From: Algoriphagus pacificus
GTDB taxonomy: Bacteria > Bacteroidota > Bacteroidia > Cytophagales > Cyclobacteriaceae
Direction: 5' to 3'
NCBI RefSeq assembly: GCF_017254845.1
Contig: NZ_JAFKCU010000001.1
Coordinates: forward strand, 186,001 to 250,000
Length of the DNA: 64,000 nucleotides
In this document: positions 29,980 through 37,045 of the stretch, piece after piece
How positions within the stretch are numbered: position 1 is the first letter of the stretch
Layout: every line of letters begins with the position of its first letter
Made by a program: the position numbers and the translations under genes
Notes under the pieces: generated by a model
What the model saw: only the letters and a program-made list of their open reading frames with translations
What the model was told of the DNA's origin: nothing
Database searches by the model: none

Positions 29980-30005
29980 TAGGGGTAAGATGCTTTTCTG
30001 TTGTC
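29980..30005 (+). promoter_or_regulatory. Candidate ECF-sigma promoter, sigma operon
   Basis: TAGGGGTAA (29980-29988), N6, TTTC (29995-29998), N2, TTGTC (30001-30005). The GGGGTAA and GTC elements are 14 bases apart, in the range of ECF -35/-10 spacing. An element with identical layout lies at 33331-33356 before the next unit of the locus, so the sigma factor probably controls its own operon. It ends 55 bases before the sigma gene's ATG. Confidence 0.7.
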
Positions 30006-30060
30006 CTATTTATAAAAACCCCTCAAAACCTTAACTTGCAGGACCAGCAACTTTGCCTCC

Positions 30061-30639
30061 ATGCAATCCACAGATCAAATGATTTTTCAGTCGATCAAAT
30101 CAGGTGATGAAAAAGCACTGGAGATGTTATTTAAAGAATATTATCAGCCTTTATGTCGCTATGCGAATTCCTATCTACCAGATCCCGATGATGCGGAAGA
30201 GGTGGTACAGGGTTGCTTTATCAAACTTTGGGAAAAGCGCGAAAACATCCAGATCCAAAGTTCCGTCAAGTCGTATCTCTATCAAATCATCCGAAATGCC
30301 TGTCTGAATGAAATCAAGCATCAGAAAGTGAAGAAAAATTACGGTGAAATGATGACTTACGAGGGAACTCCGCAAAGCGAATCTTCAGATCAATCCACTT
30401 TAAAGGATGAATTGGAGCAAAAAATTGCCGCTGCCCTTCAGTCACTTCCGCAACAGTGTCGACTGATATTTACCATGAGTAGATTCGAGGAATTGAAATA
30501 TCAGGAAATTGCGGATCAATTAAATTTATCCATTAAAACAGTCGAAAATCAAATGGGAAAAGCCCTCAAACTGATGCGAACCCAGCTTCAGGAATACCTC
30601 CCTTTGATTGTGATACTGTTTAACTTAGTCTTGGAATGA
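30061..30639 (+). CDS. ECF RNA polymerase sigma factor, FecI-like
   Basis: This is a 192-residue sigma factor with sigma region 2 at about 18-85 (LFKEYYQPLCRYANSYL, DDAEEVVQGCFIKLWEKR) and region 4 at about 122-180 (LPQQCRLIFTMSRFEELKYQ, then EIADQLNLSIKTVENQMGKA). This is the Bacteroidota family-1 ECF type that is normally held by a FecR membrane anti-sigma factor. Such a gene follows with an ATGA overlap. Targets are probably the two units carrying the shared promoter element, including the TonB-dependent receptor at 34661. Confidence 0.95.
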   Translation: MQSTDQMIFQSIKSGDEKALEMLFKEYYQPLCRYANSYLPDPDDAEEVVQGCFIKLWEKRENIQIQSSVKSYLYQIIRNACLNEIKHQKVKKNYGEMMTYEGTPQSESSDQSTLKDELEQKIAAALQSLPQQCRLIFTMSRFEELKYQEIADQLNLSIKTVENQMGKALKLMRTQLQEYLPLIVILFNLVLE

Positions 30640-31613
30640 TGAGCGAGCAGGAAGAATATTACATAGATAGCCTCATCGCCAAATACATTGTCGGTGAAAT
30701 CAGCCCTAGCGAAGAAAAAGAGCTGATGGATTGGTGTGCTCTATCCAAAGAAAACCAAAAACTCCTAGATGATGAGGTCTTGATTTATCAAAAAGCGAAT
30801 CTTGGGGCTTCCCAAAGTTTTGACACGGAGCTTGCTTGGCAAAAAATCCAACCACAAATCCAAAAGTCTGGAAAAGCCAAAATCATCACATTCCCAGTCT
30901 GGAAGTTAGCTGCAGGTTTCCTTCTTATCTGCGCGATGTCCTTCTTAATCTATCAGCAATTCGGCTCCACACAAGAATTTGAATTTACCAGCAAAAATGA
31001 GGTAGAAACCCAAATCCTTCCTGATCAAACAAGCCTTGCTATCAACCGAGGTTCAGAAGTAAGCATCGCCTATAATGAGCGCAAAAAGACCGGTCTTATA
31101 CAGCTAAGTGGAGAATCCTTGATTTCCATACCGGAGAGCAAAAAAGTCAACTGGCAAGTGCAGGTAGAGCAGTTATTTATAGAGGATATAGGCACAGTGT
31201 TTAATGTCAAAGCCTATCCAGAAAGCCCGATTGTAGAAGTTTCAGTTTTGGAGGGAGTGGTGCGTATGTATCAGGAAAACGAGGAAGGAATTCAGTTGAA
31301 AGCTGGAGAACAAGGCATTTACGATAAAGCTACAGGGGTATTTTCTAAAGCAGAGGCAGATTCTAATGTAGATGCTTATTCCACCAAATCTTTCTCTTAT
31401 TTCAACGAAGACTTGGCAAGCATCATCTCTCAACTTAGCGAAGTTTACCAGACATCCATTCGGTTGGAAGGAAACATTGGCGGATGTAGGTTGACTGTGG
31501 ATTTTGAGGAAGAAGAACTATCTACCATTCTGGCGATCATCTCTGAAACTCTAAATTTGGAAATCAACGAAACCGGAGAAGAAATCATCCTATCTGGCAC
31601 AGCTTGTAATTAA
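30636..31613 (+). CDS. FecR-family membrane anti-sigma factor
   Basis: This is a 325-residue inner-membrane protein. Residues about 1-80 are the cytoplasmic sigma-binding part, one membrane segment is at 88-107 (PVWKLAAGFLLICAMSFLIY), a FecR domain lies at about 118-225 (LPDQTSLAINRGSEVSI, VEVSVLEGVVRMYQEN), and a C-terminal STN-like DUF4974 domain is at about 255-320 (FNEDLASIISQLSEVYQTSI). FecR proteins receive a signal in the periplasm from an STN domain of an outer-membrane protein and release or activate the sigma factor. Here the STN protein is the next gene. Start could be either of two adjacent ATGs (30636 or 30639). Confidence 0.94.
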   Translation: MMSEQEEYYIDSLIAKYIVGEISPSEEKELMDWCALSKENQKLLDDEVLIYQKANLGASQSFDTELAWQKIQPQIQKSGKAKIITFPVWKLAAGFLLICAMSFLIYQQFGSTQEFEFTSKNEVETQILPDQTSLAINRGSEVSIAYNERKKTGLIQLSGESLISIPESKKVNWQVQVEQLFIEDIGTVFNVKAYPESPIVEVSVLEGVVRMYQENEEGIQLKAGEQGIYDKATGVFSKAEADSNVDAYSTKSFSYFNEDLASIISQLSEVYQTSIRLEGNIGGCRLTVDFEEEELSTILAIISETLNLEINETGEEIILSGTACN

Positions 31614-31622
31614 TTTTTTGAT

Positions 31623-33302
31623 ATGAAAATCTATCGGAACCGGCTTATTCTCGCCTTTTTACTGGTTTTTGGAAATTACTTTGTTGCCGTTTCCCAACAG
31701 AATTATTTGCTGGAAAAGAGGGTCAATCTGACTGCTCAGAACGAACCCATGGACGGATTTCTCAACAGACTTTCCAAAGAAGTCGGAGGAGTTTTTTCCT
31801 ACAGTCCCTCCACGGTGGATATTAACAAAAATGTATCAGGAGAATTCACCGACCTTTCCTGTAGGGAAGTTTTAGAGGAGATTTTTGAAGGCTCAGTCAA
31901 TTATAAACAAAAAGGAATTTACCTGATTCTTACCCCTGCTCCGCCTTCAGATAAAGAAATAACGATCAGTGGCTATGTCGTAGACCAGAAGTCAGGAGAT
32001 CGAATCAAAAATGCAACTGTCTATAATCCAATTACATTACAATCCTCAACCACAGATGAGTTTGGTTTCTTTGAATTCCAAGTGAAAAATCCTGCTGCTG
32101 AAAACTTTCAACTGGTGGTTAATAAAAAGGATTATGCAGATACTTTACTCGTGGAAAACAGACAATCCCGATTTCAGAAAATATTTCTCAAATCCGAAGG
32201 AGAAAACGCTTCGCCCATCGTCCAAAGTCTGACGGAGCCAATGAAGAATTTCTGGATTTGGACTAAAAATTCGGTAGGCTTTACCAACCTGGAAAATGTT
32301 CAGGATACCATCAACAGAAAATTCCAGGTCTCCTTTGTTCCATTTATTGGTACAAACAGGAAAATATCTGGTTCTGTAACCAACGATTTCTCTTTCAATA
32401 TTCTGGGTGGTTTTTCCGGCGGCACAAACAAAGCTGAATTGGGAGGACTTTTTAATATCAACCGTGGCGACGTGGGAAAACTACAACTCGCAGGTTTATT
32501 TAATCAAGCAGGAGGAACCGTCAGTGGTTTGCAAATAGCAGGTCTCGTTAATGCCAACCTCGATTCAGTGAAAGCAGTACAGTTGGCAGGGGTTTCTAAT
32601 TTTACCACTGGCCCTGTGCGGGGAGTTCAAGGCGCTGGTGTCCTCAATATCGCAACTTCAACAGTCAATGGCACACAACTCGCAGGGGTGATTAATTACA
32701 CACATCGAGATGTCGAGGGTGCGCAGATTGCAGGTGTGATGAATATTGCCAGAAATGTGAAAGGCCTGCAATTGGGATTATTCAATTATTCTGACAGCAT
32801 TTCTGGAGTTCCTATCGGCTTGATCAGTTTTGTAAGGAAAGGTTATCATAAACTGGAAATCGGTACTGACGAGGTACTTCCATTGAATTTTTCGCTTCGA
32901 ACAGGAACTAGAGGATTTTATAACATGCTTTTTGCAGGAATACGACCTGAAAAGGCTGATTCGGTAACTTGGGCATTTGGCTATGGCGTAGGAAGTTCTC
33001 CCAAATTAGCCAACAAACTTTTCCTCAATTTGGAATTGAGTTCGCAGCAATTGATCAAAGGAAATATACAAGCCCTTAATCTGATCAGTCGCGCTTACAT
33101 TGGTCTGGATTACCAGTTTGCCAAACATGTTGGAATCTATGCCGGTCCTAGTTTCAACCTTCGCTATTTCGACAACTCCTTTACGGATCATCCAGAATTA
33201 TTCAGCATTACAAACCCGAAAATCCGCTCTGAAAAAACTCTTGCAGACAATTTTAAAAGCCAGACTTGGTGGGGATTCAGAGCTGGAATCCGCTTTTTTT
33301 AA
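31623..33302 (+). CDS. STN-domain outer-membrane-type protein with 16-residue repeats
   Basis: This is a 559-residue protein with a signal peptide (about 1-25). Residues about 30-104 are an STN domain (NLTAQNEPMDGFLNRLSKEV; FTDLSCREVLEEIFEGSVNY), the module that signals to FecR in FecA-type receptors. Residues about 113-190 are a carboxypeptidase-regulatory-like domain. Residues 274-384 hold seven 16-residue repeats of the form AG[LV]xNxxxxxVxGxQ[LI]. The C-terminal 160 residues look like a beta-barrel or barrel-like domain ending GFRAGIRFF, with a terminal aromatic as in outer-membrane proteins. The repeats resemble surface-repeat proteins known from Leptospira (LA_2272-type); this is a memory-based resemblance. 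Nine bases after fecR, so it is in the sigma operon and probably provides the surface signal. Confidence 0.85.
   Translation: MKIYRNRLILAFLLVFGNYFVAVSQQNYLLEKRVNLTAQNEPMDGFLNRLSKEVGGVFSYSPSTVDINKNVSGEFTDLSCREVLEEIFEGSVNYKQKGIYLILTPAPPSDKEITISGYVVDQKSGDRIKNATVYNPITLQSSTTDEFGFFEFQVKNPAAENFQLVVNKKDYADTLLVENRQSRFQKIFLKSEGENASPIVQSLTEPMKNFWIWTKNSVGFTNLENVQDTINRKFQVSFVPFIGTNRKISGSVTNDFSFNILGGFSGGTNKAELGGLFNINRGDVGKLQLAGLFNQAGGTVSGLQIAGLVNANLDSVKAVQLAGVSNFTTGPVRGVQGAGVLNIATSTVNGTQLAGVINYTHRDVEGAQIAGVMNIARNVKGLQLGLFNYSDSISGVPIGLISFVRKGYHKLEIGTDEVLPLNFSLRTGTRGFYNMLFAGIRPEKADSVTWAFGYGVGSSPKLANKLFLNLELSSQQLIKGNIQALNLISRAYIGLDYQFAKHVGIYAGPSFNLRYFDNSFTDHPELFSITNPKIRSEKTLADNFKSQTWWGFRAGIRFF
32442..32774 (+). 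repeat. Seven 48-bp coding repeats (16 residues each)
   Basis: These encode residues 274-384 of the STN protein. Copies include AGLFNQAGGTVSGLQI, AGVLNIATSTVNGTQL and AGVINYTHRDVEGAQI. The last copy is one residue short. The regular Gly, Asn and Gln positions suggest a stacked beta-turn structure. Confidence 0.95.
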
Positions 33303-33330
33303 TTTTTTTTTAAAAAATCCACATCATTCA

Positions 33331-33356
33331 TAGGGGTAAAAAAGATTTCGATTGTC
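33331..33356 (+). promoter_or_regulatory. Candidate ECF-sigma promoter, paralogue-receptor unit
   Basis: TAGGGGTAA (33331-33339), N6, TTTC (33346-33349), N2, TTGTC (33352-33356); same layout as at 29980. It ends 26 bases before the ATG at 33383. An 8-bp inverted repeat (AGATTTCG 33343-33350, CGAAATCT 33364-33371) overlaps it. Confidence 0.7.
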
Positions 33357-33382
33357 TTAAAAACGAAATCTAAACCAACACT

Positions 33383-34579: not shown

Positions 34580-34660
34580 CCCTCAACTATTTCTCGACCC
34601 ATTAGCATCCTGAAATTTCCTCAGGCTGGAATTCTATTCTCAAAATTAAACCAACCTACT

Positions 34661-37009
34661 ATGAAAAAGATTGTAAAACTTTTCCTGATTCTTTGGATCA
34701 TACTATTATCAGGAAGTGTAAAAGCCCAAGTACTTACGCAGACTATCCGAGGTCGAGTGCTTGATCAAGTAACCCAAGCTCCCATGCCTGGCGCAACAGT
34801 AATGCTCCTAAATACAGAGCCTATAGTTGGAGTGATCAGCGATGATTCCGGAGAATTCAGGCTGCCAAATGTACCTGTCGGTCAGCAATCCTTACGAATC
34901 AGTTTTGTAGGCTATAAAGACCTTGTTCTCCCTTCGGTTTTAGTGAATTCTGGAAAAGAGGTGGTCTTGGAGGTTTCTCTGGAAGAAGATATCACCCAGA
35001 TCCAGGAATTTGTAGTGACGGCAACTGATAAGGATCGGACTGTAAACGACATGGTTGTGGTCAGCGGAAGGACATTTTCTGTAGAGGAAACGAGAAAATT
35101 TGCAGCAGCTGTCAATGATCCTGCTCGAATGGCAGCTTCTTTTTCAGGGGTAGTAAGCACGGATGACGGAAACAACAATATTTCTATCCGAGGCAATAGT
35201 CCTAATGGTTTACTCTGGAGAATGGAAGGCATTGAAATCCCAAATCCAAATCACTTTGTCAATCCCGGAACTTCAGGCGGTGGCGTCTCGATATTGAGTT
35301 CTCAGTTGTTGGCGAATTCAGATTTCCTTACAGGAGCTTTTGCAGCTGAATATGGTAATGCTCTTTCCGGAGTTTTTGATTTGAATCTAAGGAAAGGCAA
35401 TAATGAAAAGCAGGAATTTACTGTTCAGGCAGGTTTTCTAGGTCTGGATCTTGCGGCCGAAGGACCGATTGCAAAGAATTACAGAGGTTCTTATCTAATC
35501 AATTACCGATACTCTACTTTATCCCTCTTGTCCAAGCTAGGATTGCCTTTGGGAGATTTTGTAACCAATTTTCAGGATTTGTCCTTTAATGTTTTTCTTC
35601 CAACTGGTTCAAAAAGCAGTATTTCTCTATTTGGATTTGGTGGTTTGAGTGATCAAAAAAGCCAAGCCAATCTAGACTCCTTGACTTGGGAAAGTGAAGG
35701 AGATCGCTACAGTTCAAAATTCCTTTCCAATACTGGAGCAGTTGGAATCAAGCATTCACTGACTTTGAATAAATCTAATTTCCTGCAGACAACTGTTTTG
35801 GCTTCTGGAAATACAATCGGTGATCAAGGATCCAGACTTGACAATGAATATGTAGATGAAAACCGATACGATGAAAAATTCAACAACTCAAAAATCACCT
35901 TTAGCTCAGTTTTGAATTCTAAACTATCTGCAAGATCTAGCTTGAGAAGTGGCATTTACCTAAACCAACTCTATTATAATCTTTATCAAAACAATTTTCA
36001 TGAAGAGTCAGAGGAAATGGTTAAGGAGATTGATTCTAAAGGAAATACCCAAAGTATTCAGGCTTTTTCTCAATGGAATTACAAAGCCAATGAAAGACTG
36101 ACGCTGAATTTTGGATTACACTATCTGCAGCTACTTCTCAATAATTCAAGCTCATTTGAACCAAGATTTAGCGCTGCTTATGAACTGGATGAAAAGCAAC
36201 GAATCAGTTTGGGGTATGGACTCCATAGCCAGGTTCAGCCACTCGGAACTTATTTCGCAGAGGTAGAAAAGGATGGAATTATTTCACTTCCGAATAAGAG
36301 TTTGGATTTAAGCAAATCACATCACTTTGTGCTTGGATATGACCGCAGCCTGAATCCTTATCTCAGAATGAAAATTGAGGCTTATTACCAGCATCTGTTC
36401 CAAATTCCAATCAAAGAGGGTAGCGATGAAACCTATTCCATCATCAATCAGCAATGGTCATTTACGACAGATCCTTTGATCAATGAGGGATTGGGCAAAA
36501 ACTACGGTATAGAATTGACTTTGGAGCAGTTCACGAATAACAACATGTATTTTTTGCTGTCTACTTCTTTGTATAATTCCCAATACAAGACGCAGGAAAA
36601 TGTCTGGAGAAACACCCGATACAATGGAAATCTGAACATCACATTTACTGGGGGAAAAGAATTTGCTCTTCAAAAGAACAGGGTTTTGGGAGTTAATCTC
36701 CGTGGAATTTATGGAGGAGGCCTTCGGACTACTTCCATTCTCTTGGATGAGTCCATTGCAAAAGGCGAGACTGTTTTGGATAATTCACATGCCTTCGAAA
36801 ATCAAAACCCAGCTTATTTCAGAACTGATCTTCGATTTAGCTTAAAAAGAAACAAAGAAAAATCGACGAGAACCTGGGCTTTGGACATCCAGAATGCAAC
36901 AAATAGAAAAAACATTTACGGGGAATATTTCGAGCCTATGGATGCGGAAATCAAAACAGCATATCAATCTCCCTTGATTCCTATTCTGAGCTACCGAGTT
37001 GAGTTTTAA
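34661..37009 (+). CDS. TonB-dependent receptor with carboxypeptidase-like N-domain, no STN
   Basis: This is a 782-residue outer-membrane transporter with a signal peptide (1-22, ending VKAQ). Residues about 28-115 are a CarboxypepD_reg-like domain (IRGRVLDQVTQAPMPGATVM). The plug domain is at about 120-245 (NISIRGNSPNGLLWRMEGIE, then AEYGNALSGVFDLNLRKGN). The rest is the barrel, ending YRVEF. Receptors that signal through FecR usually carry an STN domain first; this one does not. It is the last gene of the locus and presumably the regulated transporter, while the STN protein at 31623 carries the signalling domain. The substrate cannot be read; there is no SusD partner, which argues against a glycan system. 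Confidence 0.92.
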   Translation: MKKIVKLFLILWIILLSGSVKAQVLTQTIRGRVLDQVTQAPMPGATVMLLNTEPIVGVISDDSGEFRLPNVPVGQQSLRISFVGYKDLVLPSVLVNSGKEVVLEVSLEEDITQIQEFVVTATDKDRTVNDMVVVSGRTFSVEETRKFAAAVNDPARMAASFSGVVSTDDGNNNISIRGNSPNGLLWRMEGIEIPNPNHFVNPGTSGGGVSILSSQLLANSDFLTGAFAAEYGNALSGVFDLNLRKGNNEKQEFTVQAGFLGLDLAAEGPIAKNYRGSYLINYRYSTLSLLSKLGLPLGDFVTNFQDLSFNVFLPTGSKSSISLFGFGGLSDQKSQANLDSLTWESEGDRYSSKFLSNTGAVGIKHSLTLNKSNFLQTTVLASGNTIGDQGSRLDNEYVDENRYDEKFNNSKITFSSVLNSKLSARSSLRSGIYLNQLYYNLYQNNFHEESEEMVKEIDSKGNTQSIQAFSQWNYKANERLTLNFGLHYLQLLLNNSSSFEPRFSAAYELDEKQRISLGYGLHSQVQPLGTYFAEVEKDGIISLPNKSLDLSKSHHFVLGYDRSLNPYLRMKIEAYYQHLFQIPIKEGSDETYSIINQQWSFTTDPLINEGLGKNYGIELTLEQFTNNNMYFLLSTSLYNSQYKTQENVWRNTRYNGNLNITFTGGKEFALQKNRVLGVNLRGIYGGGLRTTSILLDESIAKGETVLDNSHAFENQNPAYFRTDLRFSLKRNKEKSTRTWALDIQNATNRKNIYGEYFEPMDAEIKTAYQSPLIPILSYRVEF

Positions 37010-37011
37010 TC

Positions 37012-37045
37012 AAAAAAAAGGATGGTAGAAAATCTCTACCATCCC
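37012..37045 (-). terminator. Intrinsic terminator of the acyl-CoA ligase gene
   Basis: The arms are GGATGGTAGA (37020-37029) and TCTACCATCC (37035-37044). On the minus strand the stem is followed by T8 (37019-37012). On the plus strand the tail is poor, so it chiefly serves the minus-strand gene. Confidence 0.92.

Follow-up and report, generated by a model that had tools for sequence, protein, structure and literature searches.

A probable promoter element fixed before an ECF sigma gene and outer-membrane-type genes of Cytophagales, and the autoregulated signalling system it predicts

The promoters and signals of FecI-like sigma factors of Bacteroidota are mostly unknown. A passage in PMC12596196 says the same of those of B. 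thetaiotaomicron in particular. TonB-dependent transducers make contact with the anti-sigma factor through their STN domain, as described in passages of PMC11637429 and PMC9249621, and FecI-like sigma factors appear as exceptions to autoregulation in PMC8103513. Here we describe a locus of Algoriphagus pacificus (Cyclobacteriaceae) in which one bipartite element stands before the gene of an extracytoplasmic function (ECF) sigma factor and again before a gene encoding an LA_2272 repeat protein. The locus lies in a stretch of 64,000 nucleotides (nt) (contig NZ_JAFKCU010000001.1, positions 186,001 to 250,000), which we call the window. Its five genes, all on the + strand, encode the sigma factor, a FecR-type regulator, a protein joining a predicted STN domain to LA_2272-type repeats (STN-LA), the LA_2272 repeat protein and a TonB-dependent receptor, in this order. 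Judging from sequence comparison, we consider it very probable that the adjacent sigma factor reads the element as its target promoter, within an autoregulated cell-surface-signalling system that has a non-receptor transducer and an envelope-directed output. Across the Cytophagales sequences compared, the element keeps its sequence and its spacing upstream of sigma and outer-membrane-type genes.

An element shared by two units of one locus

The exact element occurs at 29980-30005 (TAGGGGTAAGATGCTTTTCTGTTGTC) and at 33331-33356 (TAGGGGTAAAAAAGATTTCGATTGTC), both times on the + strand. A preliminary description of this DNA had claimed two exact copies with identical spacing, GGGGTAA and GTC being 14 bases apart in each, and both the positions and the distance were confirmed. 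These are also the genome's only exact copies: the pattern TAGGGGTAA-N6-TTTC-N2-TTGTC gave two matches in 5,282,726 bases, and its reversed control gave none. With up to three mismatches allowed, the window contained two matches against 0.06 expected, while two or more were reached in 0 of 100 shuffles. Element 1 sits between a divergent methyltransferase gene and the sigma gene, ends 52 nt before the sigma ATG and is predicted to be an autoregulatory promoter. Element 2 lies in the 80-nt gap between the STN-LA and LA_2272 genes and ends 23 nt before the LA_2272 ATG. As a scan of the gap between the LA_2272 and receptor genes (34580-34660) revealed no element there, the receptor is presumably read from element 2.

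The proposed motif stood in its general core, TAGGGG-N15-YTGTC-N-TA, but not in its TTTC block. In a set of 130 promoters, composed of sites gathered from relatives plus those of the window, TTTC is present in only 22, namely in 11 of 67 sigma promoters, 10 of 20 LA_2272 promoters and 1 of 17 promoters of the OMP/DUF2807 type (OMP, outer membrane protein), and it is missing from all receptor (0/19), DUF2807 (0/6) and STN-LA (0/1) promoters. Conservation of the columns used for site picking is inflated. Among columns independent of that choice, conservation is seen in the TAA after GGGG (1.0, 0.84 and 0.72 bit), in a purine two bases before TTGTC (126 of the 130 promoters) and in A-rich columns 9-11 nt after TTGTC; NTA after GTC recurs too. 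Most of the spacer is close to random sequence, with 0.03-0.2 bit in the first seven columns behind TAA. When only GGGG and YTGTC were sought upstream of sigma genes, with any spacer from 8 to 25 nt allowed, the spacer was 15 nt in 51 and 16 nt in 8 of the 61 pairs found. In a sister sigma lineage (48-50% identity; L074, L075, L077 and L078, from G009, G017, G019 and G021), TAAGGGTAA replaces TAGGGGTAA and the spacing is unchanged. A shorter motif for genome scans, GGGTA-N13-TTGTC, was discarded as too short, for it matched 56 of 58 genomes at about the rate of its reversed control.

Inverted repeats were seen in some of these promoters. A palindrome around the -10 of LA promoters, TTTCG...CGAAA, was tried as an operator and rejected as too weak (z 3.6 in 20 related promoters); it was not found in the other promoter classes. 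Another repeat pairs the bases just after the -10 with those up to the ATG. It reaches z 5.3 in receptor promoters (0 of 1000 swaps) and is weaker in LA promoters (z 2.7), the window copy pairing at 2 of 8 positions. The arms of this repeat differ between species (relatives within L150-L222).

Distribution of the element and the genes that follow it

Orthologues of 60-87% identity were found in 10 other genomes of the same genus. The order sigma-FecR-STN-LA is kept in 10 of 10 same-genus regions, with an LA paralogue downstream in all, and the element is visible there before both the sigma and the LA genes. A broader set of relatives consisted of 80 of 578 confirmed loci from a scan of species genomes, Cytophagales. 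In 70 of these 80 loci the element (TAGGGG-N15-YTGTCNTA) was located 60-240 nt before the sigma gene, in 42 of them without a mismatch, in 21 with a single one and in 7 with two. The background was 117 such matches over 3.0 million other positions of the same loci, and many of these matches are also regulon promoters. According to our own hidden Markov models, FecR lies beside sigma in 80/80 loci and an STN gene follows in 78/80, one of the two misses (L191) being at a contig end; within 9.5 kb, an LA paralogue was found in 19/80 and a receptor in 35/80, some loci ending early at contig ends.

The arrangement varies in some of the relatives. With up to two mismatches, 13 loci (Spirosoma, Larkinella and kin) carry a copy at the junction of the FecR and STN-LA genes. 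In two more distant genomes (L266 in G039 and L133 in G050) the element precedes a FecR gene and then an STN gene, rather than sigma, at a distance from FecR of 25 nt in L266 and of 8 nt, counted to the first ATG, in L133. A second ECF-like sigma gene (21% over 173 amino acids, aa) and further genes lie between STN-LA and LA in L072:8319-10116 (G026), and an opposite-strand MacB/FtsX-type permease gene separates the two locus halves in L067:3745-6378 (G014).

A further 74 sites with at most one mismatch were found in the 80 loci at places other than the one before sigma. Sixty-one of them end no more than 110 nt before the next frame, which encodes a receptor in 19 cases, an LA_2272 protein in 18, a DUF2807-like protein in 17, an OMP-like protein in 6 and an STN-LA protein in 1. 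Ten lie inside the first 53 nt of called frames (2 receptor, 2 DUF2807-like, 6 STN-LA), one is 244 nt before a DUF2807-like frame (L224), and two fit no class (L216, L222). DUF2807 was confirmed with Pfam in all eight proteins tested, and the single OMP-like protein tested matched OMP_b-brl. Upstream of LA genes, the element ends 21-24 nt from the ATG in 17 of the 18 rows, a spacing more fitting for a promoter than for an operator acting from afar.

In 58 genomes the strict pattern gave 38 sites, distributed over 16 genomes, and the reversed control gave 15 sites. By their surroundings, 32 of the 38 were assigned to sigma, FecR/STN, LA_2272, receptor-like, Toastrack or OMP-like genes, the only assignments by eye being a receptor-like gene in G039 and an OMP-like gene in G050. 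The remaining six (two in G039 and one each in G014, G034, G045 and G052) are unassigned. It is on where the sites lie, 32 of 38 before genes of the target classes, that our case rests.

At a distance from the locus, the same gene was repeatedly found behind a site; it encodes a DUF4097 Toastrack lipoprotein (PF13349, 55.3 bits, over the gathering score of 22.9). Its subfamily (at least 45% identity) is present in 12 of 15 sigma-bearing and in 0 of 21 other genomes of the genus (Fisher 3.6e-7), and in 11 of these 12 the element precedes the gene, at 76-353 nt before the matched stretch; seven of these elements are exact and four carry two mismatches, and the gene of G024 lacks one. None of 18 Toastrack paralogues (32-38% identity; a subset of those known, five with incomplete flanks) carries the element at up to two mismatches. 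Three sigma-bearing genomes of the genus lack the Toastrack gene, and two of them, G029 and G022, carry a DUF2807-type gene after LA (by Pfam for G022). The regulon of two promoters within 7 kb that had been proposed is thus too narrow, given a conserved trans site before the Toastrack gene and the OMP-like and DUF2807 targets that relatives add. In the window's own genome (G000), the trans site is G000:C12:1203368. Other candidates in that genome were dropped: G000:C38:265191, with no target-type gene in the 8 kb examined there, and the one-mismatch sites C12:73789 and C23:671110, both inside other open frames.

The Toastrack leader (L230:1213-1500 in G000; also in G001 and G018) contains a frame of 34 aa with a common GDL(S/P)PP stretch, which starts 68 nt after the element's first base in the three genomes, and a leader peptide is possible. 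Downstream of the element, the leaders of G000, G001, G018 and G009 contain TTGACNTANATCAA-like and TAnnTTTG sequences, which we take to be of the FNR/CRP type and of the Bacteroidota housekeeping -7 type, respectively. This suggests a second promoter in these four leaders.

Several observations weigh against so close a tie between element, sigma lineage and circuit. All 16 genomes with the strict pattern are among the 20 that bear a sigma homologue of at least 44% identity, compared with 0 of the other 38 (Fisher 6e-11); however, the genomes are related, so the counts are not independent, and the 44% threshold is post hoc. The reversed control also favours sigma-bearing genomes (11/20 vs 3/38), perhaps because many of the other genomes are small or incomplete. 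For all these reasons, the genome count carries less weight by itself than its size suggests. The strict pattern is missing from four of the 20 sigma-bearing genomes, of which G017, G019 and G021 show a TAAGGG variant and G051 shows nothing, and 10 of the 80 loci have no match within two mismatches (by eye, eight near variants and two, L219 and L225, with none). In G000, matches with at most one mismatch equal the control (5 vs 5), and therefore the trans site there draws its credit from conservation. No element was found, at up to two mismatches, in the 420 nt upstream of the other 25 TIGR02985 matches of this genome, but 6 of the 25 are partial (19 are full-length), so that the upstream stretch is partly coding. 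Finally, the STN match of the window's own STN-LA protein (PF07660) reaches 20.0 bits where the gathering score is 28.4 (E 6e-4; best family member E 1.9e-11). Nevertheless, comparison supports the earlier claim of an ECF-type promoter of this sigma factor, with probable autoregulation and control of the second unit: the element has a fixed spacer and precedes sigma in 70 of the 80 loci from relatives, stands before second-unit genes as well, is confined, among the 58 genomes, to those with this sigma lineage and precedes none of the 25 other sigma-family matches.

Genes of the locus and the position of the STN domain

Table 1. Features of the sigma/FecR/STN-LA locus (window positions)
Feature	Position	Strand	Basis
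Predicted promoter element 1, TAGGGG-N15-TTGTC-CTA	29980..30008	+	Exact match; kept upstream of sigma in 70/80 relatives
ECF sigma factor, 192 aa	30061..30639	+	TIGR02985 (Sig70_bacteroi1), 187.6 bits vs cut-off 126.4
FecR-type anti-sigma/sigma regulator, 325 aa	30636..31613	+	PF04773, 40.1 bits (cut-off 24)
STN + CarbopepD_reg_2 + LA_2272-type repeats, 559 aa, ends FF	31623..33302	+	Domain profiles, that of STN below its gathering score
Terminator-like hairpin with T run, end of unit 1	33273..33291	+	Weak: 7 such in the region vs 7.6 expected
Predicted promoter element 2, TAGGGG-N15-TTGTC-TTA	33331..33359	+	Exact match; relatives also have copies upstream of LA genes
LA_2272 repeat protein, 398 aa	33383..34579	+	NF047436, 42.6 bits, cut-off 25
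TonB-dependent receptor, 782 aa, CarboxypepD_reg + Plug, without STN	34661..37009	+	Domain profiles
10-bp hairpin between receptor gene and convergent 513-aa gene	37020..37044		By eye from the sequence

The sigma protein also matches Sigma70_r2 and r4_2, and it alone exceeds the cut-off among the 26 TIGR02985 matches in the genome. The fecR start overlaps the sigma stop, and the C-terminal part of FecR matches FecR_C (PF16344, 36.6 bits vs cut-off 24.4). The STN-LA protein begins like a signal peptide, as judged by eye, and falls just under the cut-off of NF047436 (24.7 vs 25), and the LA_2272 protein is a paralogue of its repeat part (54% over 378 aa). The hairpin behind the receptor gene is likely a terminator common to both convergent genes.

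The preliminary description implied a locus of the FecA type, sensed by its receptor, but STN lies on the repeat protein instead of the receptor. STN was detected in 44 of 50 members of the STN-LA family, all 50 of which have CarbopepD_reg_2 (E<=0.01), and in 0 of 32 members of the receptor family, which has a mean column identity of 68% over these 32 sequences. With STN placed in this way, we infer that the STN-LA protein would be the transducer, FecR its inner-membrane partner and the sigma factor the output. A location of this predicted transducer in the outer membrane is suggested by family names and by C-terminal residues (F in 28 and L in 27 of 76). A profile search of solved structures with the STN-LA protein returned a weak STN-type match only (PilQ, E 0.31). 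An anti-sigma domain and a beta-barrel in one chain, the mark of Dma proteins, were not found either, the 325-aa FecR showing FecR and FecR_C matches only. Our literature search, which covered titles and abstracts of open-licence papers, with ECF classification papers outside it, returned no description of an STN-LA_2272 transducer.

Proposed circuit and its relation to known systems

In the circuit that we propose, FecR in the inner membrane would hold the sigma factor inactive, while the repeat protein encoded by the third gene, not a TonB receptor and predicted to lie in the outer membrane, would touch the C-terminal domain of FecR with its STN domain. The STN-LA protein might thereby report the state of the outer membrane or surface; a changed STN-FecR contact would lead to processing of FecR and release of sigma. 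Freed sigma would fire element 1, raising its own operon (sigma, FecR, transducer), and also element 2 (LA_2272 protein and receptor) and the trans site (Toastrack DUF4097 lipoprotein). The shared element would thus autoregulate the sigma-FecR-transducer operon and couple to it the LA-receptor unit and the Toastrack gene. Such an output seems to serve the envelope and not a single nutrient, a hint that what the system monitors is the outer membrane or the surface. Tentatively, and with somewhat more doubt than trust, we can extend this to a widespread Cytophagales class in which STN sits on an LA_2272 repeat outer-membrane protein, the outer membrane is monitored rather than a siderophore, and a self-amplifying regulon (with Toastrack lipoproteins, LA_2272 proteins and an STN-less receptor as outputs) forms an outer-membrane stress response made from FecIR parts.

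On one hand, the locus could be an ordinary FecI-FecR-FecA system, with ligand sensing by the TonB receptor of unit 2, an accessory role for the STN protein and a regulon devoted to the uptake of one substrate. In its favour, FecR with FecR_C, the sigma factor and a conserved receptor share the locus and the element; nevertheless, we think it unlikely, since the receptor has no STN in 32 of 32 sequences, FecR is followed by an STN gene in 78 of 80 loci but has a receptor within 9.5 kb in only 35, the targets include Toastrack-type genes, and the sigma gene itself bears the element, although FecI-like sigma factors are listed in PMC8103513 as exceptions to autoregulation. On the other hand, the site might belong to some other regulator that happens to control the same genes, be it a further sigma factor or a DNA-binding protein, and the inverted repeats around or after the -10 of LA and receptor promoters could be taken as its trace. 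This is less probable still: two blocks with a fixed 15-nt spacer close before start codons look like an ECF promoter, and the element co-occurs with this sigma lineage in the 58 genomes and is absent before other sigma genes. The idea that element 2 is a mere by-product of the duplication in which the STN-LA_2272 gene gave rise to the LA_2272 gene has in its favour that the two repeat proteins are paralogues (about 54% identical), and yet it is highly improbable, being contradicted by elements before unrelated genes; in this lineage element 1 precedes sigma and not the STN-LA gene, elsewhere the second element precedes a receptor or DUF2807-like gene, and flanks and spacers differ.

Under the sigma-promoter reading, one such sigma factor, among many per genome (26 TIGR02985 matches here), is given a precise motif, an unusual transducer and a list of conserved targets, one of them in trans, which makes its control circuit open to testing. 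The same reading also connects a FecR-type sigma factor with Toastrack proteins, whose link to envelope stress comes from other systems.

The proposed system would operate as a form of cell-surface signalling, yet it is not FecA-type by the place of its STN domain. With FecI-FecR-FecA of E. coli and Pseudomonas it shares an ECF sigma factor, FecR with FecR_C, STN and a TonB receptor gene predicted to be sigma-controlled, but here STN belongs to an LA_2272 repeat protein encoded within the sigma operon instead of to the receptor, and there are Toastrack targets. Moreover, the sigma gene has its own element, whereas E. coli fecIR is read by sigma70 according to a passage of PMC9249621; because the element predicts autoregulation, the Cytophagales system would differ from FecI-like sigma factors in this respect. 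In PUMA3 (VreA-VreR-VreI of P. aeruginosa), STN is likewise on a protein other than a TonB receptor, but VreA, as PMC2729926 describes it, is mostly soluble, probably periplasmic, and has a TolA/TonB-like C-terminal domain, while the STN domain described here is fused to CarbopepD and to a long stretch of LA_2272 repeats with an outer-membrane-protein-like end. Dma, too, ties a Bacteroidota ECF sigma factor through a regulator to an outer-membrane-type domain and has an envelope-related output; in PMC13088901, however, it is one protein (anti-sigma domain, transmembrane helix, tether, beta-barrel) with a sigma factor assigned to ECF21, whereas here the task would be split between FecR and the STN protein. 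Lastly, the DUF4097 and DUF2807 targets resemble the Toastrack proteins of envelope stress, under which name a passage of PMC11237479 unifies both families; in the systems treated there the domain is predicted to be intracellular, while the proteins described here look by eye like secreted lipoproteins and would belong to a FecR-type sigma regulon.

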